A DNA stretch of 64,000 nt from Acidovorax sp. 107 (GTDB lineage: Bacteria; Pseudomonadota; Gammaproteobacteria; Burkholderiales; Burkholderiaceae_C): the NCBI RefSeq assembly GCF_003058055.1, contig NZ_QBTZ01000001.1, positions 3,800,001 to 3,864,000 of the forward strand, given 5' to 3'. Below, in pieces: positions 1,043 through 38,917 of this stretch. The notes under the pieces were generated by a model, which worked only from the letters and a program-made list of their open reading frames with translations, did not search any database and was not told where the DNA came from. The position numbers and the translations under genes were made by a program. Numbering within the stretch: position 1 is the first letter of the stretch; each line of letters starts with the position of its first letter.

Positions 1043-2179
1043 TCAGTCCGCAGCGACCAGCCGCCCCCGGCCCGCCGTCTTGGCTGAATACAGGGCGCCA
1101 TCGGCACGGGCCATCAGCTCCGCCAAGCCGGCTTCGCCAGGTTGCAGCACGGCCATCCCGGCGCTGTAGTCCAGCGCAAAGCCCAGCTCGGCCACGCTGG
1201 CGGCATGCAGGCGCTTGCGCAGCCGCCGGTCCAGCGCCAGGCCGGCGGGCTCGCTGTTGTGCAGCAGCAGCACGCCAAACTCCTCACCCCCCAGGCGCCC
1301 GACCAGGTCGCCGCTGCGGCAGGTGCCGCCCAGCAGGCGGGCAAACAGCTGCAGGGCTCGGTCCCCCGCCTCGTGGCCGTGGGTGTCGTTGACCTGCTTG
1401 AAGTGGTCCAGGTCCAGCATCAGCGCTGTCATGGGCAGCTGGTGGCGCGCGGCGTGTGCCAGCAGGCTGCTGCCTTGGGTGGTGAAGCCGCGCCGGTTGA
1501 GCACGCCGGTCAGGCCGTCCGTCATCGCCAGCGTGCGCAGCTTGTGTTCGGCCTCCGACCGCCAGGCCACCAGCACGGCCACCGTGCCGAGCACCAGGCT
1601 CACGTTGGTGGCAACGGCCGCTGCCAGGTTGACAGGGTGGGGGGTGCGAAAGCTGGAGTACTGGTCGGTGAAGGCGCCCAGCATGCCCCGCGCCAGCGTG
1701 AACGCGGCCGACGTCAGCAGGCAGCCCAGCAGCAGGCTGCGCCAGCGCAGGTTGGCCTCGACCACGGGCGCCAGGGTGGCGCGCGCAACGATGCACAGAA
1801 TGGTGGCCATCAAGAAGTTGGCCCAGCCCACGCGCCAGGCGTAGTGACCAAAGCCCAGCGTGTAGCCCAGCGGGGCGGCAATCACCAGCAGCAGCAGCAG
1901 GCGGCGCAAGGGGCGGGGGCCCAGCCATTCCTCCAGCGCCCGGTACAGCATCCACTGCGCGGCGGCGTTGCAGGCAATCGACAGGGTGGAGAGGGCTTGG
2001 TCCCACAGGGTGGATGAGGCAATGATGGCTGCCCAGGCCACCGCCTGCAGCAGCATGCTGGCCTGCACATGGCGGGCCGCACGGCTCACGTCCCGGCCCA
2101 TGATCAGCGGCAGCGCGGCCGAGATCATGAACAGGTTGGCCGCCATGACCGTCATCAGGGTGAGGAAATCCAGTGGCAT
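1043..2179 (-). CDS. Membrane diguanylate cyclase (GGDEF)
   Basis: Makes cyclic di-GMP from two GTP, the second messenger controlling biofilm and motility. 378 residues: the first ~200 are hydrophobic and hold about six membrane segments of no recognised sensor family, followed by one GGDEF domain. The active-site loop is GGEEF at residues 297-301. An inhibitory I-site RSGD lies five residues before it (288-291), so product feedback inhibition is likely. Metal-binding DLDHFKQVND and DGLTGVLNRR motifs are intact, so the enzyme should be active. Start is the ATG at 2179; no strong ribosome binding site is visible. It lies near a second c-di-GMP protein gene (3728-5791) but is separated from it by AMP nucleosidase, so common regulation is not implied. 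Confidence 0.9.
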   Translation of the reverse strand: MPLDFLTLMTVMAANLFMISAALPLIMGRDVSRAARHVQASMLLQAVAWAAIIASSTLWDQALSTLSIACNAAAQWMLYRALEEWLGPRPLRRLLLLLVIAAPLGYTLGFGHYAWRVGWANFLMATILCIVARATLAPVVEANLRWRSLLLGCLLTSAAFTLARGMLGAFTDQYSSFRTPHPVNLAAAVATNVSLVLGTVAVLVAWRSEAEHKLRTLAMTDGLTGVLNRRGFTTQGSSLLAHAARHQLPMTALMLDLDHFKQVNDTHGHEAGDRALQLFARLLGGTCRSGDLVGRLGGEEFGVLLLHNSEPAGLALDRRLRKRLHAASVAELGFALDYSAGMAVLQPGEAGLAELMARADGALYSAKTAGRGRLVAAD

Positions 2180-2200
2180 ACGCGGCGGCCCCGGGGCGGT

Positions 2201-3682
2201 TTACTGAAACGCGACCTCGGCAAAGCTGCGCAGCTTGCGGCTGTGCAGGCGGTCCACGCCGCCGTTGCGCAGGATCTCGATGGCGCGCATGCCGATGCGC
2301 AGGTGCTGGTCCACCCGCTCGCGGTAGAAGTGGTTGGCCATGCCGGGCAGCTTGATCTCGCCGTGCAGGGGCTTGTCGCTCACGCACAACAAGGTGCCAT
2401 AGGGCACGCGGAAGCGGAAGCCGTTGGCGGCGATGGTGGCGCTTTCCATGTCCAGCGCCACGGCGCGGCTCTGGCTGAAGCGGCGCTGGGGCGTGTTGTC
2501 GGGCAGCAGCTCCCAGTTGCGGTTGTCGGTGCTGGCCACGGTGCCGGTGCGCATCACGCGTTTCAGGTCTGCGCCGCTGATCTGCGTGACATCGGCCACG
2601 GCCTGCTGCAGCGCGAGCTGGATCTCGGCCAGCGCGGGGATGGGCACCCACAGTGGCAGGTCTTCGTCCAGCACATGGTCCTCGCGCACATAGGCGTGGG
2701 CGAGCACGTAGTCGCCCAGCTGCTGGCTGTTGCGCAGGCCCGCGCAGTGGCCCAGCATCATCCAGGCGTGTGGGCGCAGCACGGCGATGTGGTCGGTGAT
2801 GGTCTTGGCGTTGGCCGGGCCCACGCCGATGTTGACCATGGTGATGCCGCTCGCGTCCTTGCGCACCAGGTGGTAAGCGGGCATCTGCGGCAGGCGGGGC
2901 GGGGCGGCGCCCAGCTCGTCGCCGGCCTCGGCGCTCAGGCCCACGCGGCGCGTGACCACGTTGCCGGGCTCGATGAATGCGATGTATTCGCTGTCCGGCT
3001 TGGCCATCTCGGCATGGCCCAGGCGCACGAATTCGTCGATGTAGAACTGGTAGTTGGTGAACAGCACAAAGTTCTGGAACCACTCGGGCGCCGTGCCCGT
3101 GTAGTGGCGCAGGCGGTGCAGCGAGTAGTCCACGCGCGGCGCGGTGAACAGCGACAGCGGCTGCGCCTCGCCCGGCGCGGCCTGCCAGGTGCCGTTGGCG
3201 ATGCCGTCGTCCATGGCGGCCAGGTCGGGCAGGTCGAACACGTCGCGCATCAGCATGCGGCGGGCCTGGGTCAGCGTGCCTTCGATGTGGTCGTGCTCGG
3301 CAAACGAGAAATGGATCGGGATCGGGTGGGTGCTGGTGCCCACTTCCAGTTCCACGTTGTGGGCCGCGCGCAGCAGGCGGAACTGCTCGGCGTAGTAGTT
3401 GGCAAACAGGTCGGGCCGGGTCAGCGTCGTCTCATAGCGCCCGGGGCCTTCCACAAAGCCATAGGCCAGCTTGGTATCAGCCCGCGCCACGGTGGTGGTG
3501 TGCACCCGCACAAACGGGTAGAACGCGCGCACCGGGCCTTCAGGCGTCTCGCCCGCCACAAAGCGCTGCATGGCGTCGCGCAGGTGGCCGATTTGCTGCT
3601 GGTAGATGCGCTGCACCTGGGCCAGCGCATCGGCCGGGTCGGTGTGGCGTGTGGGGGCGATGAATTCGGGGATGAGGGGCAT
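2201..3682 (-). CDS. amn: AMP nucleosidase
   Basis: Cytoplasmic enzyme that hydrolyses AMP to adenine and ribose 5-phosphate, controlling adenylate pools. About 493 residues, the usual length for bacterial Amn. The N-terminal half has the Amn-specific region (AFYPFVRVHT, ANYYAEQFRLL); the C-terminal half is a nucleoside-phosphorylase fold with MVNIGVGPANAKT, the MESATIAANGF motif that contacts the ribose, and SDKPLHGEIKLPG. Start is uncertain. I list the ATG at 3682, giving MPLIPEF, but AGGGG is only one base upstream of it; an in-frame GTG at 3697 with GAGG ten bases upstream is the alternative. The gene stands between two c-di-GMP genes on the same strand. Confidence 0.93.
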   Translation of the reverse strand: MPLIPEFIAPTRHTDPADALAQVQRIYQQQIGHLRDAMQRFVAGETPEGPVRAFYPFVRVHTTTVARADTKLAYGFVEGPGRYETTLTRPDLFANYYAEQFRLLRAAHNVELEVGTSTHPIPIHFSFAEHDHIEGTLTQARRMLMRDVFDLPDLAAMDDGIANGTWQAAPGEAQPLSLFTAPRVDYSLHRLRHYTGTAPEWFQNFVLFTNYQFYIDEFVRLGHAEMAKPDSEYIAFIEPGNVVTRRVGLSAEAGDELGAAPPRLPQMPAYHLVRKDASGITMVNIGVGPANAKTITDHIAVLRPHAWMMLGHCAGLRNSQQLGDYVLAHAYVREDHVLDEDLPLWVPIPALAEIQLALQQAVADVTQISGADLKRVMRTGTVASTDNRNWELLPDNTPQRRFSQSRAVALDMESATIAANGFRFRVPYGTLLCVSDKPLHGEIKLPGMANHFYRERVDQHLRIGMRAIEILRNGGVDRLHSRKLRSFAEVAFQ

Positions 3683-3727
3683 ACCCCTATTGTCCACAAG
3701 CCGAAGGCCTCGGTAGGAAACCAGCGG

Positions 3728-5791
3728 CTATTGCTTCAGCCAGTGACCGGCGGCCTCGGTATCCATGGGCATTGCCACCACAAACCCCTGCATCAGGTCA
3801 CAGCCCAGCCCTACCAGCAAGCCGATTTGCGCCTGCGTCTCCACTCCCTCTGCCACGGTCTTGAGTTGCAGGCTGCGGGCCATCTGGATGATGGCGGTGA
3901 CGATGGCGACATCGTCGGCGTTGCCTGGGGTGTCGGCGACAAACGATCGGTCGATCTTGAGCTTGTCGATGGGGTAGCGTTTCAGGTAGGCCAGGGACGA
4001 GTACCCGGTGCCGAAGTCGTCGATGGAGATGCCGACGCCCAACGCCTTGACGGCGTGCAGGGTGTTCAGGGTCTGGCCCGTGTGGTGCATCAGCACCGAC
4101 TCGGTGAGCTCGATCTCCAGGTATTGCGCGGCGAGCCCGGTTTCCTGCAGGACCGCGGCAATGTCGGCGGCCACGTCGCGCTGGCGGAATTCGAGGGCCG
4201 ATAGGTTGACGGCCACGGGCACCATGGCGAGGCCCTGGTCCTGCCACGCCTTGAGCTGGCGGCAGGCCTCACGCATCACCCAGCGGCCAATGGGTGCAAT
4301 GAGGCCGCGAGACTCCGAGAATGTGATGAACTCGTCCGGCCCGACCAGCCCGCGCTCGGGGTGGCGCCAGCGCACCAGCGCTTCCAGGCCCTGCAGCGTG
4401 CCATCGGCCAGGCAAATTTGTGGTTGGTAGTGCAGCACGAAGGCGTTTCGGGCGATGGCGTCGCGCAGCAGCCGCTCCTGATGCAGTACGTCGAGGGCGC
4501 CCGCTTCCATGCTGGAGGTGTAGAACTGGCGGTTGCCGCGCCCGCTGTCCTTGGCGTGTTGCATGGCTGCGTCGGCGCAGCGCAGCAACACGTCGGCGCT
4601 GTCTCCATGGTCTGGATACAGGCTGATGCCGATGGACGGGGAGATGGTGAGCGGCAACTGATCGACCGTGAACACACCATGCATCGAGTCCAGCAGCTTG
4701 TCGGCCACCATGGCGGCGTCGTCGGCTGTCTGCACGTCGGTCAGGACCACCACGAACTCATCACCGCCGATCCGCGCGACCACATCGGCGTCCCGCACGC
4801 CGTGGCGCAGGCGCTCGGCCACGTTGCACAGCAGCTGGTCGCCCGCGTGGTGACCAAGCGAGTCGTTCACGGTCTTGAAATGGTCCAGGTTCATGAACAG
4901 CACTGCCACCCGGCCATGGCGCCTGCGTGCCAGCGACAGCACCTGCGACAGCTGCTCGATCAGGAAGTGGCGGTTGGGCAACTGCGTGAGGGGGTCGTGC
5001 AGCGCAATGAAGGCCTCGCGCTCCTGGGCCTGTTTGCGGGCCGTGATGTCACGCACCACCACGATGCGGTAGTCCGCGTGGTGCAGTGGCATGGTCTTGC
5101 CCACAACCTCCACGGGGATCGCATGGCCGTCCTTGTGGCGGATGGTGACTTCGTAGGGGTCCTCCCGGCCGCTGCGGGTGTATTCCAGCGCAGTGGCGCG
5201 CCATTCGGGGCTGATGAAGTTGAAGATCGACAGGCCCAGCACCTCGTGCAGCGCAAAACCTGTGAGCCGGTGCAGCGCCTCATTGCCATCGGTGATGATG
5301 CCGTCGCGGTGGAACACGATGGCCTCGTCCGTAGCCTCGGTGAACTTGCGCATGCGCTCTTCACTCTGGCGCACGGTGCGCTCGGCGCGCCAACGCTCGG
5401 TGATGTCGGTGATCAGCACAAACGAGCCCAGCTGCTGCCCCGTGTCGCCAAAATGCGGGATCAGGTTGACCTCGATCATGCGCGCTTCGCCATTGGGCAG
5501 GGTCTGTTCGCGCGTGTACTTCACGTGCTCGCCCTGCACGCACCGTTCCACATGCGGCTGGATCACTTGCCACGCCTTGGCGCCGATGGCCTGCTCTACC
5601 GTGAGGCCCAGAATGGATTCAGTGCTGTGGCCGTTGTAGGCCGCGTAGCCCTGGTTGGCAAACCGGCACAGCAGGCCGGGCAGGTCGTAGTAAGCCATCA
5701 TGGCCGGGACCGAATCGGCAATCAGCCGTAGCAATGCGTCGCTGGAGCCACTGGGGCCAGGGGTGGAAGCTGCGTTGTGGGGGTCTTGCAT
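3728..5791 (-). CDS. PAS-PAS-GGDEF-EAL cyclic di-GMP signalling protein
   Basis: Predicted cytoplasmic dual-domain enzyme that could make and degrade cyclic di-GMP in response to a PAS-sensed signal. 687 residues from the ATG at 5791, which has GGAG seven bases upstream; an in-frame extension to 5902 lacks such a site. Order: two PAS/PAC sensor regions (about residues 20-270), GGDEF domain with an intact RIGGDEF loop, then EAL domain with LEALVRWRHP, NLSALEFRQ, ELTESVLM and the DDFGTGYSS metal/substrate motif. No transmembrane helix is evident. Both catalytic motifs look intact, so net activity cannot be told from sequence. Transcribed divergently from the MgtC-like gene across about 160 bp. 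Confidence 0.93.
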   Translation of the reverse strand: MQDPHNAASTPGPSGSSDALLRLIADSVPAMMAYYDLPGLLCRFANQGYAAYNGHSTESILGLTVEQAIGAKAWQVIQPHVERCVQGEHVKYTREQTLPNGEARMIEVNLIPHFGDTGQQLGSFVLITDITERWRAERTVRQSEERMRKFTEATDEAIVFHRDGIITDGNEALHRLTGFALHEVLGLSIFNFISPEWRATALEYTRSGREDPYEVTIRHKDGHAIPVEVVGKTMPLHHADYRIVVVRDITARKQAQEREAFIALHDPLTQLPNRHFLIEQLSQVLSLARRRHGRVAVLFMNLDHFKTVNDSLGHHAGDQLLCNVAERLRHGVRDADVVARIGGDEFVVVLTDVQTADDAAMVADKLLDSMHGVFTVDQLPLTISPSIGISLYPDHGDSADVLLRCADAAMQHAKDSGRGNRQFYTSSMEAGALDVLHQERLLRDAIARNAFVLHYQPQICLADGTLQGLEALVRWRHPERGLVGPDEFITFSESRGLIAPIGRWVMREACRQLKAWQDQGLAMVPVAVNLSALEFRQRDVAADIAAVLQETGLAAQYLEIELTESVLMHHTGQTLNTLHAVKALGVGISIDDFGTGYSSLAYLKRYPIDKLKIDRSFVADTPGNADDVAIVTAIIQMARSLQLKTVAEGVETQAQIGLLVGLGCDLMQGFVVAMPMDTEAAGHWLKQ

Positions 5792-5949
5792 GGGCAGGCT
5801 CCGATGGGTTTCGTTATAGCCGATCCACCTGACATTCAGGCTAGGGGCAACTCCGCATGGCCGCCGTGCGCGGGGCGCGATGGTGGCCCTTTCTGTCACC
5901 ATGGGGTGTGGTCAGAGAAACAAAAAAGCCAGAAAGGGGCGGGAGTTCC

Positions 5950-7230
5950 ATGCAGGAGTTCGGAGGTTTTTCGACAGCGCTGGCTGTGCTGGCGAGCGCG
6001 ACGGGCTGCGGTTTGCTGATGGGCATCGAGCGGGAGCGCCGCAAGGGCGCGGGGCCCGACCGGGCCCCGGCCGGGGTGCGGTCGTTCACCCTGGCCTCTC
6101 TAGGGGGGGCCGCTGCTGCGCTGACGGCCATGCCCGCGCTGGTGGCGGTGGGGGCCGCGCTGGTGGCGGCGTTGACCGTGGTGGCCTATGCGCGGGACCG
6201 CTCCAGCGACCCGGGCGTGACCACCGAGATTGCCCTGTTGCTGGCCTATGTGATCGGGGTGATTTGCGCACGCGACCAGTTGCTCGCTGCCGCCCTGGCG
6301 GTGCTGGTGACGGGGCTGCTGGCGCTGCGGGGCGCCCTGCACCAGTTCTCCAACCAGTGGTTGCAGCCCGGCGAGGTGCGCAGCGGGCTCATTCTGGCTG
6401 CGCTGGCTTTGCTGGTGTACCCGCTCGCCCCCAACACCCCCCTGTGGCAAGGGGTGCTGAACCCGCAGGTGGTGGTGCGCCTGGTCATCGTGCTGCTGGT
6501 GATCCAGTCGCTGGCGCACCTGGCCAAGCGGCTGATGCAGGCGCGCCATGCGGTGGCGCTGTCGGCGCTGGCGTCGGGCTTTGTGTCGAGCACCGCCACC
6601 ATCGGCAGCCTGGGCATGGAGGTGCGCGCGGGCCGGGCACCGTCACGCGCCCACGCCGGGGCTGCGGTGCTCTCATGTGTGGCCACCATGGTGCAGATCG
6701 TGGTGGTGGCTGCTACCGTGCAGCCCCAGTGGCTGGCGCGGCTGTGGCTGCCTGCGCTGGCGGGTGGATGTGTGGCGGCGGCCGTGGGCTGGTGGGGCGG
6801 GCGGGGGGTGGCGCGCCGGTCCGCCAAGGCTGCAGATGCCGGGGTGGACGGGGCTGTTGCCGTCCCCCCTGATACCCCCATGTTCAAGCTGCGCGACGCC
6901 TTGCTGATTGCAGCCTTGCTCACGGGCATCCAGGTGGCGGTGCAGGGGCTCACCGTCTGGCAAGGCGATGCGGGCATGCTTGTGGGCGCCTTGCTGGCGG
7001 CCCTGGCCGACGTACATGCGGCCACCGCCGCCGTGCTGGTGCGCGGTGGCCCGGACAGCGCGTTCGCACCCGCCATCGTGCAGGCGTTGATGGCCGCGCT
7101 GCTGGTGCATGCGGGCAGCAAATGCGTGGTGGCCCTCGCCAGTGGTGGCTGGCGCTACGTTGTGGCCGTGGCACCGGGCGTGCTGGCGCACACCCTGGCC
7201 TTTGTGGGGGTGCTGGCCCTGCAGGCATAG
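5950..7230 (+). CDS. MgtC/SapB-DUF4010 family membrane protein
   Basis: Inner-membrane protein of the MgtC-N/DUF4010 family. 426 residues from the ATG at 5950, preceded by GGGAG at good spacing; an open extension upstream to 5857 is not needed. The N-terminus has the MgtC-like start, GCGLLMGIERERRKG, followed by AGVRSFTLASLGG. About ten more hydrophobic segments follow, with a polar loop around residues 290-310 rich in Ala and Arg. The DUF4010 half contains the ASGFVSSTATIGSLG stretch typical of the family. MgtC itself regulates magnesium and ATP homeostasis in enterobacterial pathogens. This long DUF4010 form is uncharacterised, so no substrate is assigned. Confidence 0.85.
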   Translation: MQEFGGFSTALAVLASATGCGLLMGIERERRKGAGPDRAPAGVRSFTLASLGGAAAALTAMPALVAVGAALVAALTVVAYARDRSSDPGVTTEIALLLAYVIGVICARDQLLAAALAVLVTGLLALRGALHQFSNQWLQPGEVRSGLILAALALLVYPLAPNTPLWQGVLNPQVVVRLVIVLLVIQSLAHLAKRLMQARHAVALSALASGFVSSTATIGSLGMEVRAGRAPSRAHAGAAVLSCVATMVQIVVVAATVQPQWLARLWLPALAGGCVAAAVGWWGGRGVARRSAKAADAGVDGAVAVPPDTPMFKLRDALLIAALLTGIQVAVQGLTVWQGDAGMLVGALLAALADVHAATAAVLVRGGPDSAFAPAIVQALMAALLVHAGSKCVVALASGGWRYVVAVAPGVLAHTLAFVGVLALQA

Positions 7231-33987: not shown

Positions 33988-34163
33988 GCGCGAAACCATA
34001 GCAGACACTGCAATGCGGATACGGCCACCAGGGGGATTCGGGGCAAGTAACTGGGCGCAAGGTCTGCGACCTGCTGCAACCGGGGCAACGGGGATTCCGC
34101 GGCGTGCCCTTGAAACGGCATGTCTGCGCCGCCATGTGTTCAGCAACCTGTATGCCCCACGCC

Positions 34164-34601
34164 ATGACCGAAGCCCTGCACATCGTTTGCCCCCATTGCC
34201 ACACCACCAACCGCGTGCAAAGCGCCGACCTGGGCAGCGCACCCGATTGCGGCAAGTGCCATCAGCCCCTATTTTCGGGGGCTCCGCTGGAGTTGGACGC
34301 CACCAGCTTTGACAAGCATGTGGCACGCAGTCACCTCCCGGTGCTGGTGGACTTCTGGGCCCCTTGGTGCGGGCCGTGCCGCCAGATGGCGCCTGCCTTT
34401 GCGCAGGCGGCCCGCGAGCTGGAGCCCGGCGTGCGTCTGGCCAAACTCAACACCGAAGACCACCAGGCCATTGCCGCGCGGTATGCGATCCGCAGCATCC
34501 CGACCATGATCCTGTTTCAGCAGGGGCGCGAGGTGGCGCGCATTTCGGGCGCGCTGGGGGCTGCGGACATCGTGCGCTGGGTGCGCACAGCGGCGGCATA
34601 A
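34164..34601 (+). CDS. trxC: Thioredoxin 2
   Basis: 145-residue cytoplasmic disulfide reductase of the TrxC type. The N-terminal zinc-binding extension has two CxxC pairs (CPHC and CGKC), followed by a thioredoxin domain with active site WAPWCGPCRQM and the cis-proline loop RSIPTMILF. In E. coli the equivalent gene is OxyR-controlled; no regulator site was identified here. Start at ATG 34164 (MTEALHIVCPHC), where homology begins. Confidence 0.95.
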   Translation: MTEALHIVCPHCHTTNRVQSADLGSAPDCGKCHQPLFSGAPLELDATSFDKHVARSHLPVLVDFWAPWCGPCRQMAPAFAQAARELEPGVRLAKLNTEDHQAIAARYAIRSIPTMILFQQGREVARISGALGAADIVRWVRTAAA

Positions 34602-34617
34602 AAGCTCAAATCGTGAG

Positions 34618-34655
34618 AGCCCGTAGACGATCCCCTGACGGATCGTCTACGGGCT
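34618..34655. terminator. Perfect 16-bp hairpin between trxC and doxX
   Basis: AGCCCGTAGACGATCC (34618-34633) and its exact complement at 34640-34655 flank a six-base loop CCTGAC. The two convergent genes trxC and the DoxX gene end either side, so it most likely stops transcription in both directions. There is no adjacent T-run, unlike a textbook intrinsic terminator. Confidence 0.7.
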
Positions 34656-34656
34656 G

Positions 34657-35130
34657 TTAGCGGATTCCGAACGCCCGGTCGAGCGACAGGGCCCCCGCAC
34701 CACGCCCGACCAAGTACAGCATCAGCCCTGCCCACGACAGGTGGGTGGGCCAGGCATCGGGGTACACAAACACCTGAATGACCAGTGTCATGCCCAGCAA
34801 GGCCAGCGCCGACAGGCGCGTGAACAGGCCCAGCACCAGCAGCACGGCGAAGAGGTGCTCGGCCACTGTGGCCATCTGCGCCGCCAGCTCGGGCGGTAGC
34901 AAGGGCAGCTTGTATTCGTCGCGGAACAGGGCGTAAGCGCTGTCGGACACCGTGAACCAGCCCTCGACCTTGGTACGTGCGGACAGCCAGAAGATCCCTG
35001 CCACGGCCACGCGGTTGACCAGCGCCAGGAGGCTGTGGGGGGTGAGGAGGGTTGCGGCATCGGCCAGGCGGTCCAGCAGCAAGCGCGGGCCGTTGGCGGA
35101 GGCAGGGGAGATGTGGGTGGTGGTGTTCAT
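34657..35130 (-). CDS. DoxX-family membrane protein of the bufferin-type operon
   Basis: 157-residue protein with four predicted membrane helices and DoxX-family features ([19 protein letters not shown], then [21 protein letters not shown]). The ATG at 35130 has AGGTG six bases upstream, better than the ATG at 35139. DoxX-like proteins commonly close DUF2282-DUF692-DUF2063 operons and are thought to take part in redox or export steps at the membrane; the exact role is unproven. Fourth gene, 10 bp after the DUF2063 stop. Confidence 0.85.
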
Positions 35131-35140
35131 GGCGGGCACC

Positions 35141-35902
35141 TCAGTCTGTGTGGGAATCCGTTGGAATCAAGGCGCCCGCGTCCAGCAGGCGGCCCATCAG
35201 GGCGGCAAAGTCGATGCCCGGGTCGGCCTCCAGGGCGCGGGTGGCGGCGGCCTCCAGGGGCAGGCCTTGGGCGCAGGCGTCCAGAAAGGCCACTCCTGCA
35301 CGCGGTAGGGGATGCCACACCACTTCGGCATGGGGCCGGGTGAGCAAAGCCCCATCACCCGTCCACTCCAATGCTTCATTGGGGAGCAGACCTTCGCGGT
35401 GGCTCTGCCACAGGGCATATGCCGGATGCTCGTCGCACCAGGTCCAGCGTGCGGTGGGGTGCGGACGCAGCGGCACAAGGGGCAGCGTGTCGGGGGCCTG
35501 CTGCGCAAGCCAGCCACGGTCGATGGCGGTGGCATTCCCTGCCAGATGGCATTCGGTCCAGCACCGGTCCAGGCGCGCCACAGGGGGTAAGTAGGGCAGC
35601 TCGGCCGCCGGTGTAAACCCGGCCAGAAAGTCGGCAAACCCCGCGCCGTAGTTCACCAGCAGCCCGTCAACTGGCGGCTGCGCGCGGGCGTACACCGCAG
35701 CGGCGGCGCGGAACCAGTCTTCGCCCACCAGCTGGCTCACCGTGGGGTAGTTGGCTTGCAGCGCATCGATGCAGCCTTTGAGCGCGGTGTTGCGATACAC
35801 GGCAAATCCCGGTTGGGACTCCAGCGCAGACAGCCACGGTGCTTGCGCGGCGTGGCCGAGCAGCGCGGCAGAGAAGCCGTCCTGGAAGGTGCTCAGCTGC
35901 AT
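35141..35902 (-). CDS. DUF2063 (HvfC/BufC-type) partner of the MNIO enzyme
   Basis: 253 residues. The N-terminal half matches the DUF2063 putative DNA-binding fold ([46 protein letters not shown]), and the C-terminal half the HvfC domain. Despite the name, characterised relatives bind the RiPP precursor and deliver it to the MNIO enzyme. It overlaps the MNIO gene by 10 bp, a strong hint of coupled synthesis and a complex. Confidence 0.87.
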
Positions 35903-36741
35903 GCGGCCTCCTCGGGCTGCACCGCGGTGAGTGCGCTGTGGGCCTGATCACGCTCGGCCAGCAGTTCCCCGAAGGGTGGCAGGTGGTCGTCGCGCTCGAT
36001 CAGGGTGGGCACGGGGCCGGTGCGTGCGATCACCTGCTCGTACAGCGCCCACACGGCGGGCGCCACGGGCGCATCGTGGCTATCGATGAGCAAGGCGTTG
36101 CCGTGCACCGGGTCCGTATGGTGGCCTGCCAGGTGGATTTCGGCCACGGCGTGCAGGGGGAAGGCGCCGAGGTAGGCCTGTGCGTCAAAGCCCAGGTTGT
36201 TGGCGCTGATGTACACGTTGTTCACGTCCAGCAGCAGGGCGCAGCCGGTGCGCTGCACCAGTTCGGCCAGAAAATCGGTCTCAGGCCAGTCGTGGCCGTC
36301 GATGTGCAGATAGTGCGTGGGGTTCTCGATGGCGATGGGGCGTTGCAGCACGTCCTGCGTGCGGGCGATGTTGCCAGCGATGCGGTGCAGCGCCGCTTGC
36401 GTACGGGGAAACGGCAGCAGGTCGGGCAGGTACTGCCCGCGCCAGGTGGACCAGGCCAGGTGCTCAGAAATGAGGGCAGGATTCACGCGCCGTGCGAGGG
36501 CGGCGAGGCGCTTCAGGTGGGCCGCGTCGGGCGGGGCATCGGCCGCGAGCGACAGCGACACGCCATGCAGAGCCACCGGGTGGCGCGCACGGATGGCCTC
36601 CAGCCAGGTCAGGCGCGGGCCGCCATCGGCCAGGTAGTTCTCGGGGTGCACCTCCCACCACAAGCCGGGGGCGGTGCACCGCAGCGCCTCGTCGTAGTGC
36701 TGGGGCTTGAGGCCCAGGCCAGCGGTGAGAGGGGGGGCCAT
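35893..36741 (-). CDS. MNIO (DUF692, HvfB/BufB-type) peptide-modifying multinuclear iron oxygenase
   Basis: 282-residue TIM-barrel enzyme of the DUF692 family, now known as multinuclear non-heme iron-dependent oxidative enzymes; MbnB of methanobactin and bufferin enzymes belong here. It installs oxidised heterocycles on cysteines of a precursor peptide. Metal-ligand regions visible: ISEHLAW, AIENPTHYL, LLDVNNVYISANN, HLAGHHTDPVHG, LIDSHD and LIERDDHLPP. The start ATG at 36741 is two bases after the precursor stop. A far longer open frame upstream belongs to the precursor region and is not coding in this frame. Confidence 0.92.
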   Translation of the reverse strand: MAPPLTAGLGLKPQHYDEALRCTAPGLWWEVHPENYLADGGPRLTWLEAIRARHPVALHGVSLSLAADAPPDAAHLKRLAALARRVNPALISEHLAWSTWRGQYLPDLLPFPRTQAALHRIAGNIARTQDVLQRPIAIENPTHYLHIDGHDWPETDFLAELVQRTGCALLLDVNNVYISANNLGFDAQAYLGAFPLHAVAEIHLAGHHTDPVHGNALLIDSHDAPVAPAVWALYEQVIARTGPVPTLIERDDHLPPFGELLAERDQAHSALTAVQPEEAACS

Positions 36742-36743
36742 GG

Positions 36744-37031
36744 TCAGCTCTTCATGGGCGTCAGCATGCCCATGCCCTTGGGTGTCTTGATCGAGGCGCA
36801 GGTGCCTGCGGGCACGAACTTCCAGGCGTTGCCTTGGTAGTCCATCTTGGAGGTGCCCGCGCAGGTGGTGCCGGGGCCGGCGGCGCAGTCGTTCTTGCCT
36901 GCCATCGAGACGCCGTAGCACTTCTCCATGGCGGGCTTGGCGCCGTCCATGGGGGCGGTCTGGGCCATGGCGGCGCCAGAGGTCAGGGCAACGAGGGCGA
37001 GGGCGCCGAGACTGAGGGTGCGGGTGGTCAT
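36744..37031 (-). CDS. Bufferin-type metallophore precursor peptide (DUF2282)
   Basis: 95-residue secreted precursor. Sec signal of about 23 residues ([17 protein letters not shown]), then a DUF2282 core with exactly four cysteines at 38, 49, 57 and 78, in [21 protein letters not shown] and VPAGTCAS contexts. In characterised bufferins cysteines of the core are turned into thiooxazole groups by the MNIO partner and the product sequesters copper in the periplasm; I infer the same kind of role. First gene of the operon, with a GTAACC-N16-CGAA promoter 89 bp upstream. Start at ATG 37031. Confidence 0.88.
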
Positions 37032-37119
37032 GGTAGGAATCTCCGAAGGTTGGGTAAGGGTTGAGTCCGACCGGGGTGCTGCCCAGAGGCTGCGTGGAAC
37101 TGCCCGATCTGCGTTGTAA

Positions 37120-37145
37120 TTCGCGCTGTGCAGCGGTCGGGTTAC
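37120..37145 (-). promoter_or_regulatory. ECF-type promoter of the bufferin operon, GTAACC-N16-CGAA
   Basis: On the minus strand GTAACC (37145-37140), sixteen bases, then CGAA (37123-37120). The same pattern occurs on the other strand upstream of the sigma gene at 37199-37224. From memory this is the form recognised by Caulobacter SigF-type sigma factors. It lies about 89 bp before the precursor start codon. Confidence 0.75.
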
Positions 37146-37198
37146 AGCGCTGCGCAAAAAATCGCGACGGCATGACGAAAATATTTTTTGTGCTGCCT

Positions 37199-37224
37199 GT
37201 AACCCATCCGCCCCGGGATACGAA
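37199..37224 (+). promoter_or_regulatory. ECF-type promoter of the sigma/anti-sigma operon, GTAACC-N16-CGAA
   Basis: GTAACC at 37199-37204, sixteen bases, CGAA at 37221-37224, ending 19 bp before the sigma factor ATG at 37244. Identical box sequences and spacing to the divergent promoter at 37120-37145, implying that the sigma factor drives its own operon and the metallophore operon. Confidence 0.75.
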
Positions 37225-37243
37225 TTCCTTGCAGGGAGACACC

Positions 37244-37789
37244 ATGGAGATAGTGGAAGAGCGCCTGCGTGGCTTGTTGCTGCAGGGGCTGGATGCCGAC
37301 GCAGCCGCCTACCAGCGCTTTTTGAAGGAGCTGAGTGCCCATCTGCGCGCCTTCTTGCGCCGCCGCCTCGCGCAGCGGCCTGATGAGGTGGAAGACCTGG
37401 TGCAGGAGACGTTGCTGGCCGTGCACAACCAGCGCCACACCTACCGGCCCGAAATGCCGGTGACGGCCTGGGCGCATGCGATTGCGCGCTACAAGCTTAT
37501 CGACTGGCTGCGCTCGCATGCCGCCAAGGAGGCGCGCAATGACCCGCTGGACGATGCGGACGAGTTGTTTGCCAGCAGCGACAGCGAGGCTGCTGAAGCC
37601 CGGCGCGACCTGGGGCAGTTGCTTCAGACCCTGCCGGACAAGCAGCGACTGCCGATTGAGTATGTGAAGCTGGAAGGGTTGTCGGTGGTCGAGACGGCGC
37701 GCCTCACGGGGCTGTCGGAGTCGGCCGTCAAAGTCGGCGTGCACCGGGGCCTGAAGGCCCTGGCTGCGAAGATCAGAGGAATGACATGA
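37244..37789 (+). CDS. ECF sigma factor (SigF-like)
   Basis: 181-residue extracytoplasmic-function sigma factor. Region 2 has [21 protein letters not shown] and [19 protein letters not shown] (-10 recognition); region 4 has [20 protein letters not shown] and the helix-turn-helix [19 protein letters not shown] (-35 recognition). The ATG at 37244 has GGGAG six bases upstream; upstream in-frame ATGs are rejected because the promoter lies there. It shares ATGA with the anti-sigma gene. It is expected to be held inactive by the NrsF-like partner and released by metal or oxidative stress. Confidence 0.92.
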
Positions 37790-38427
37790 AAACCGATGAA
37801 TTGATCCACCTGCTGGCTGCAGACGAGCGGCCCGTGCGGCGCACCGCCATCGAGCAACGGATTGCCGTGGCCAGCGCTGTGGGCATTGCCGGCGCCGGGG
37901 TGCTGATGCTGACCTTGTTCGGCCTGCGCCCCGATCTGCTGGCGACCATGGCGCTGCCCATGTTCTGGGGCAAGCTGGTGTTTGCGGCAGCGCTGGCGGC
38001 TGCAGGCCTGGCGCTGCTGCGCCGCATGGCCCGCCCGGGCATGCCGCTAGGCCACGCTGCCCTGTGGCTGGCGGTGCCGCCGCTGGTGCTGTGGGCCATG
38101 GCCTTGGGGGCGTTGTCGCAGGTGTCTGCCGCAGAGCGCATGCCGATCATCCTGGGCAGCACCTGGCGCACTTGCCCCTTCAATATCGCCTTGCTCTCGG
38201 TGCCCGCATTTGTGGCCGGGTTCTGGGCGCTCAAGGGCGCGGCCCCTACGCGCCTGGCGTGGGCAGGAGCGGGCGCCGGATTGCTGGCGGGTGCGCTGGG
38301 GGCTCTGGTGTATGCGCTGCATTGCCCCGAAATGGCCGCGCCGTTTCTGGCGGTGTGGTACGTGGCAGGCATGGCCATGCCGACGGCGCTGGGGGCTGTG
38401 CTGGGGCCGCGCCTCCTGCGTTGGTGA
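37786..38427 (+). CDS. NrsF-like (DUF1109) membrane anti-sigma factor
   Basis: 213 residues with a short cytoplasmic N-terminus ([18 protein letters not shown]) that should bind the sigma factor, then six membrane helices. There are only two cysteines, Cys130 in TWRTCPF and Cys180 in LHCPE, both followed by proline. In Caulobacter NrsF two conserved cysteines at almost the same positions are needed for signal response (from memory), so a heavy-metal-sensing role is inferred. Start ATG overlaps the sigma stop by four bases. Confidence 0.88.
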
Positions 38428-38458
38428 GGGCGGCTGATACAGCAAGCGCCATGGCGGC

Positions 38459-38917
38459 TCAGGCGCTGACGCGTTTGCTGTAGGCGCGAAACACCGTGTC
38501 CAGCGTCCACCCCAGCGATTCGTAGAGTGACTGCGCGGCGATGTTGGTGTGTGCCGTGGTCAAGTCCATGCGCACCCTGCCATGGGCGCGGGCCGTCGCC
38601 TCTGCTGCCACCAGCAGGCTGCGCCCGGTGCCGGTTTGGCGCGCTGCGGGCACCACGAACAGGTCGTACAGCGTGTAGATGGGGGCCGCCTCCACCGAGC
38701 AGAAGGTGGGATAGAGCTGGCAAAAGCCCATTGCGGCCTGCGAAGCATCCATTGCCAGCAGGATCACCGACTCTCCACGCTCTAGCCGTTCTGCCATGAA
38801 GGCCCGTGCTCTGGACAGGTCTGGCGCCTGCTCGTAGAACTGCCGGTAGGCATCAAAAAGCGGCGCGATGGTGTCGGCGTCGGCCGGTGTGGCGGGGCGG
38901 ATGTGCGCAGCGGTCAT
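38459..38917 (-). CDS. GNAT-family N-acetyltransferase
   Basis: 152-residue acetyl-CoA-dependent acetyltransferase. The fold is recognisable from IRPATPADADTIAPLFDAYRQ at the start, LYDLFVVPAARQTGTGRSLL (strand 4 and the acetyl-CoA pyrophosphate loop, here RQTGTG), and NIAAQSLYESLGW (motif B). Substrate unknown. Start ATG 38917. Convergent with the anti-sigma gene, 31 bp apart. Confidence 0.87.
   Translation of the reverse strand: MTAAHIRPATPADADTIAPLFDAYRQFYEQAPDLSRARAFMAERLERGESVILLAMDASQAAMGFCQLYPTFCSVEAAPIYTLYDLFVVPAARQTGTGRSLLVAAEATARAHGRVRMDLTTAHTNIAAQSLYESLGWTLDTVFRAYSKRVSA

Follow-up and report, generated by a model that had tools for sequence, protein, structure and literature searches.

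One of the closest described counterparts of the gene cluster considered here is found in Caulobacter vibrioides/crescentus, where CC3252-CC3257 encode DUF2282, DUF692, DUF2063 and DoxX proteins beside sigF and nrsF. The same components are present in the stretch analysed here, a window of 64,000 nucleotides from Acidovorax sp. 107, whose genome is 5.1 Mb; coordinates are positions within the window unless stated otherwise, and the four genes are called bufABCD. Caulobacter sigma-F promoters have the form GTAACC-N16-CGAA, and msrPQ-like genes form part of the sigma-F regulon (PMC3511200, PMC8224329), both of which are features that the present genome appears to share. The Caulobacter regulon is reported to be induced by copper (PMC8224329, PMC3511200), and disruption of sigF severely impairs growth on copper (PMC8224329). 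As to the product, modification of the central cysteines and an outer disulphide are stated for Buf1 (PMC12452194), and thiooxazoles have been assigned in Caulobacter bufferin 1 (PMC13097082). The arrangement is not identical in the two species: in Caulobacter there is another cluster under sigma-F, CC2907-CC2905, whereas a genome-wide search of Acidovorax sp. 107 gives a single MNIO match and a single DUF2282 match.

Other described systems share part of this organisation. The gigPABT-rpoQ-rsqA genes of Cupriavidus metallidurans likewise place an operon of four corresponding genes opposite a divergently transcribed sigma/anti-sigma pair (PMC10304878), the difference being that control of gig by rpoQ is unproven there. 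Brucella BcrS-AbcS and Azospira SigF resemble the present switch in bringing together an extracytoplasmic function (ECF) sigma factor of group ECF16, an NrsF-family anti-sigma factor and methionine sulfoxide reductase (Msr) genes, but their companion is a methionine-rich peptide, BcrX or MrpX (PMC8315932); for Brucella, DUF2282 and DUF692 are absent from the main text of that paper. Among the captophorins, Buf2, HvfA/oxazolin and fontiphorin have an MNIO enzyme, a DUF2063 partner and a cysteine-rich precursor, as here (PMC12452194, PMC13097082), but the precursor belongs to a different family. In fontiphorin a loss of 4 H for each Lys-Cys motif has been observed (PMC13097082).

From the genes, their families, the promoter motifs and the conservation of those motifs observed here, we propose that this is very probably a Buf1 bufferin cluster under a local sigma-F/NrsF switch, which would combine copper buffering with methionine repair by MsrPQ. 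The features concerned are as follows.

36744 to 37031, minus strand: bufA, Buf1 (DUF2282) precursor, 95 residues.
35893 to 36741, minus strand: bufB, MNIO (DUF692) enzyme, 282 residues.
35141 to 35902, minus strand: bufC, DUF2063 partner protein, 253 residues.
34657 to 35130, minus strand: bufD, DoxX-family membrane protein.
37244 to 37789, plus strand: sigF-like ECF sigma factor gene, divergent from bufA.
37786 to 38427, plus strand: nrsF, membrane anti-sigma factor with cysteines 130 and 180.
37120 to 37145, minus strand: predicted sigma-F promoter of bufABCD, exact GTAACC-N16-CGAA.
37199 to 37224, plus strand: predicted sigma-F promoter of sigF-nrsF, exact GTAACC-N16-CGAA.

The four buf genes are consecutive and closely packed, running on the minus strand from 37031 to 34657. 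A preliminary description of this stretch had reported four minus-strand frames at 34657-37031, with a spacing of 2 base pairs (bufA-bufB) and an overlap of 10 (bufB/bufC), and all of this is present in the sequence as reported. It had also named the DUF2282, DUF692/MNIO, DUF2063 and DoxX families. A profile check confirms the four assignments, and since all four proteins exceed their Pfam cut-offs the operon is not a chance arrangement. BufA scores 90.9 bits on PF10048 (DUF2282; cut-off 22.4, E 4.8e-26). Its N-terminus looks by eye like a Sec signal peptide, with a hydrophobic stretch ending AMAQ, and the four cysteines noted earlier are at residues 38, 49, 57 and 78. This four-cysteine pattern is conserved in all 34 precursors examined, our own included, which were taken from 50 DUF2282 matches across the genomes searched.

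The preliminary description would have abandoned its proposal had 35893-36741 fallen outside the MNIO family. The frame lies inside it, at 331.5 bits on PF05114 (MbnB_TglH_ChrH; cut-off 25, E 4.2e-99) and 365.5 bits on the NCBIfam model MNIO_BufB NF050167 (cut-off 310), and it matches solved MNIO structures (PDB 3bww, 4e-40; MbnB 7dz9, 2.4e-11). Residues H59, H94, E139, D172, N174, N175, H203, D220, H222 and E249 are invariant in 80 of 80 aligned relatives; of these, H59, H94, E139, D172, H203, D220, H222 and E249 are putative metal ligands, as judged from conserved motifs. BufC scores 74.1 bits on PF09836 (DUF2063; cut-off 27.2, E 1.1e-20), and a comparison with solved structures matched only alphaRep proteins (E at least 0.0024), which is uninformative. 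BufD scores 63.1 bits on PF07681 (DoxX; cut-off 23.6, E 3.9e-17), computed on 34657-35139. For bufD the listed start is the GTG codon at position 35139; we prefer the ATG at 35130, whose Shine-Dalgarno-like sequence is better (by eye).

Older annotation, and the proposal made for GigBA in PMC10304878, would have BufC and BufB act on DNA, by DNA binding and in the manner of endonuclease IV, and the Pfam entry for DUF2063 continues to speak of a putative DNA-binding domain. Action on DNA appears very unlikely, however: BufB exceeds the cut-off of the bufferin maturase model, and published work presents DUF2063 proteins as partners dedicated to MNIO enzymes (PMC13097082).

The class of the cluster was described earlier as 'bufferin/HvfABCD', and here only the first half of the name stands. 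An Hvf/oxazolin cluster would have an enzyme of the same superfamily and the same kind of partner, and BufB and BufD do give weak matches to HvfB (221.1 bits, cut-off 360) and HvfX (42.3 bits, cut-off 80). These fall below the cut-offs while BufB exceeds that of the BufB model, and the precursor is a DUF2282 protein with no EGKCG motif in its 95 residues; an Hvf identity is thus hardly credible. A Buf2 identity is ruled out, BufA scoring 20 bits on the BufA2 model (cut-off 60). By these sequence models, therefore, the cluster is of the Buf1 bufferin type, bufABCD and not hvf.

The SigF-like protein has Sigma70_r2 and r4_2 domains above the Pfam cut-off and scores 308.9 bits on NCBIfam PRK12536.1 (cut-off 250); these scores were computed on 37202-37789, and the ATG start at 37244 was chosen by eye. 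NrsF scores 245.8 bits on PF06532 (DUF1109; cut-off 26.8). It shares a two-cysteine character with the NrsF-family anti-sigma factor of Brucella: cysteines 130 and 180 resemble the conserved pair C129/C179 of that homologue, for which a role in sigma binding and signal response has been suggested (PMC8315932).

The region between bufA and sigF contains two exact, outward-facing copies of GTAACC-N16-CGAA, one for each operon, that of bufABCD starting 114 nucleotides upstream of the bufA start. A search of the window for TGTAACC-N(14-18)-CGAA found two matches against 0.02 expected by chance, both with a spacer of 16, and a consensus scan of 34500-38600 for sigma-70-type promoters found none. 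It is most likely, by analogy with Caulobacter, that sigF-nrsF controls bufABCD. The range given in the preliminary description, 34657-37031, does not extend to sigF-nrsF or to either promoter-like site, and the link to sigma-F/NrsF and msrP was missed.

Conservation was followed in two sets of loci. The first consists of loci from named relatives (the best 80 of 83 confirmed loci); judged by BufB, the named relatives closest to the present genome are Acidovorax. The order bufABCD is kept in 79 of the 80, the exception (L107) being cut by a contig end. A divergent sigF is present in 71, and nrsF also in 70 (L142 is cut). The motif is found upstream of bufA in 77 of the 79 loci with bufA (not in L108 or L144), and on the sigF side in 70 of the 71 with a divergent sigF (not in L067). 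When spacers from 10 to 22 were tried as a control, bufA-side matches were seen only at 16, and on the sigF side there were 70 at 16 and one stray at 10. The bufA motif persists in six loci that have no adjacent sigF (L106, L111, L114, L120, L126 and L135, the last cut short). The second set has 34 loci, our own included, and overlaps the named loci, so the two samples are not independent. Here the bufA motif is found in 30 of 34 (genus 30/30, outside 0/4) and the sigF-side motif also in 30 (genus 29/30, outside 1/4). At the level of whole genomes, bufA, bufB and nrsF are found together in 30 of the 36 genus genomes, and the remaining six, some of which are incomplete, lack all three.

The exact motif occurs at four sites in the genome of Acidovorax sp. 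107, two at buf/sigF and two elsewhere. The third begins 86 bases upstream of msrP, the product of which scores 486.7 bits on the MsrP model (cut-off 207); downstream is a frame, cut by the end of the locus, whose ferric-reductase-like membrane domain agrees with what msrQ should encode. The msrP site could be scored in 45 of the 49 genomes with any match. The other four are G036, in which msrP lies inside the buf cluster, G041, a contig-end fragment, and G040 and G057, whose matches are weak. Of the scored genomes with nrsF, 28 of 29 have the site, as do 2 of the 16 that lack nrsF (Fisher p = 1e-8, uncorrected for ancestry); for the genus by itself the figures are 28 of 28 and 2 of 4 (p = 0.012, likewise uncorrected). 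Because predicted promoter sites are found at buf, sigF and msrP, and because the msrP site tracks nrsF, the Caulobacter sigma-F regulon of bufferin, sigF-nrsF and msrPQ appears to be conserved here, down to the promoter spacing. The regulon thereby becomes open to test in a further host, and the case for a tie between copper buffering and methionine repair is strengthened, without this being a new kind of system.

The fourth site (1472381-1472406 in the genome) lacks the leading T and begins 72 bases upstream of a transporter-like frame. That frame (minus strand, 148-1335 of 1471000-1473800) resembles by eye the substrate-binding protein of an ATP-binding cassette (ABC) transporter. The site may be a chance occurrence or an extra sigma-F target.

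A number of observations weigh against the proposal. NrsF scores only 140.1 bits on the NCBIfam model AntiSigF_NrsF, below its cut-off of 300. The fourth site adjoins a gene with no known place in a sigma-F regulon, and a reversed control pattern gives 7 genomic matches against 4 for the exact motif, or 16 against 3 when a leading T and a looser spacer are used. The motif is thus not rare in the genome, and the argument for a regulon rests on position and conservation. The four loci from outside the genus (L013, L014, L162 and L164) have no exact bufA motif, and the genome of L162 does have nrsF. Two genus genomes, G029 and G032, keep the exact msrP motif with no match to nrsF or bufA, which points to recent loss of the switch, to gaps in the assembly (for G029) or to recognition of the site by a different sigma factor. 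Conversely, a non-genus genome, G038, has nrsF and no msrP site. From C. metallidurans it is reported that gig expression in metal-treated cells rose when rpoQ was deleted, that loss of gig from the parent strain was without effect on copper, and that gig makes a small contribution, visible in some multiple mutants only (PMC10304878).

By analogy with the studied relatives, the signal, sigma-F control, the chemistry, the order of modification and export, and copper binding would be as follows. Periplasmic stress, either copper or the oxidative damage resulting from it, would inactivate the membrane protein NrsF and so free sigma-F, which would then transcribe bufABCD, its own operon and the distant msrPQ. 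BufB together with BufC would convert the central cysteines C49 and C57 of BufA to copper-binding thiooxazoles; the peptide would be exported by Sec, and a disulphide would form between C38 and C78. The modified BufA would buffer periplasmic copper while MsrPQ repairs oxidised methionines, and BufD, as a DoxX protein, would probably have an auxiliary redox role in the membrane.

The signal is the point at which a different explanation carries some weight. The operon might answer mainly to oxidants (reactive chlorine or oxygen, chromate), copper being only one trigger, with the modified peptide and MsrPQ protecting periplasmic thiols and methionines. In other organisms, hypochlorous acid or reactive oxygen species elicit the response of ECF16 sigma factors, and Msr genes are a recurrent theme of their regulons (PMC8315932). 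The sigma-F genes of Caulobacter are induced by chromate and cadmium (PMC3511200), and stationary-phase cells are reported to need sigma-F to survive hydrogen peroxide (PMC3511200, PMC8224329). In the present genome NrsF has the corresponding cysteine pair and msrP carries the motif. On the other hand, the Caulobacter sigF mutant is reported to be similar in its sensitivity to chromate and cadmium but to grow poorly on copper (PMC8224329), and characterised products of MNIO-PME1 are generally copper-binding (PMC13097082). We regard this oxidant reading as unlikely, at about one chance in four, and prefer copper buffering coupled to methionine repair.

It is worth adding that BufA has seven methionines downstream of the signal-like region. 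Because it is methionine-rich, and its predicted sigma-F promoter is of the type also found at msrPQ, the mature bufferin could conceivably itself be a substrate of MsrPQ, acting both as a copper buffer and as a repairable methionine sink. If true, this would join the bufferin response to that of MrpX/BcrX. However, the methionine count is poorly conserved, ranging from 4 to 9 per whole precursor in 30 genus genomes, and we consider the idea improbable.

The precursor had been put forward as a clear candidate for an undescribed member, which was an overstatement. A search with BufA scored at least 8000 relatives, and an Acidovorax protein 86% identical (P0036) is named 'BufA1 family periplasmic bufferin-type metallophore' in its source, while another, 93% identical (P0003), carries that name in truncated form. 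Given these existing names, and the presence of the precursor in 30 of 36 genus genomes, the cluster is an ordinary example of a widespread system and no undescribed kind. Thousands of Buf1 and Buf2 bufferins have been collected (PMC12452194), and more than 20,000 captophorins are reported in RefSeq (PMC13097082). A single search of the literature available found no paper combining Acidovorax and DUF2282, a weak indication that conservation of sigma-F/msrP at promoter level in Acidovorax is unpublished.

Two related loci were seen in other genomes. In a genome of the same order with no NrsF match, L149 (G036:C6:14000-24000, approximately 2435-6699, minus strand) has bufA, bufB, bufC, doxX, msrP and msrQ in a row on one strand, where the scores on the DUF2282, DUF2063, DoxX, MsrP and MsrQ models all exceed the cut-offs. 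This row links bufferin to methionine sulfoxide repair without sigma-F. A few EGKCG clusters are reported to contain Oxidored_molybd and ferric-reductase genes (PMC12452194). The other locus, L165 (G015:C1:229500-234500, 1169-3299), is a second bufferin cluster in a genome of the same genus, in which a single open frame containing both MNIO and DUF2063 domains comes after the gene of a BufA2 precursor (96.4 bits, cut-off 60). A second MNIO is found in 12 of 36 genus genomes, in open frames of 547-638 residues, the fusion to DUF2063 having been checked in G015 only.

Downstream of bufD there is one further feature.

34619 to 34654, no strand assigned: perfect 15-base-pair inverted repeat, between a convergent trxC-like gene and bufD.

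The repeat has a 6-base loop, and the fold of 34600-34670 is -37.3 kcal/mol (z -6.38). A terminator scan accepted no T run at 34619-34654 and did not call it an intrinsic terminator. It does not belong to a repeat family, since a genome search allowing as many as 3 mismatches gives one place, and is possibly a two-way transcript end. The convergent gene, at 34104-34601, is thioredoxin-2-like, with a zinc ribbon and a thioredoxin domain. Of the 80 named loci, 40 have a homologue on the corresponding strand, and the gene is probably just a conserved neighbour.
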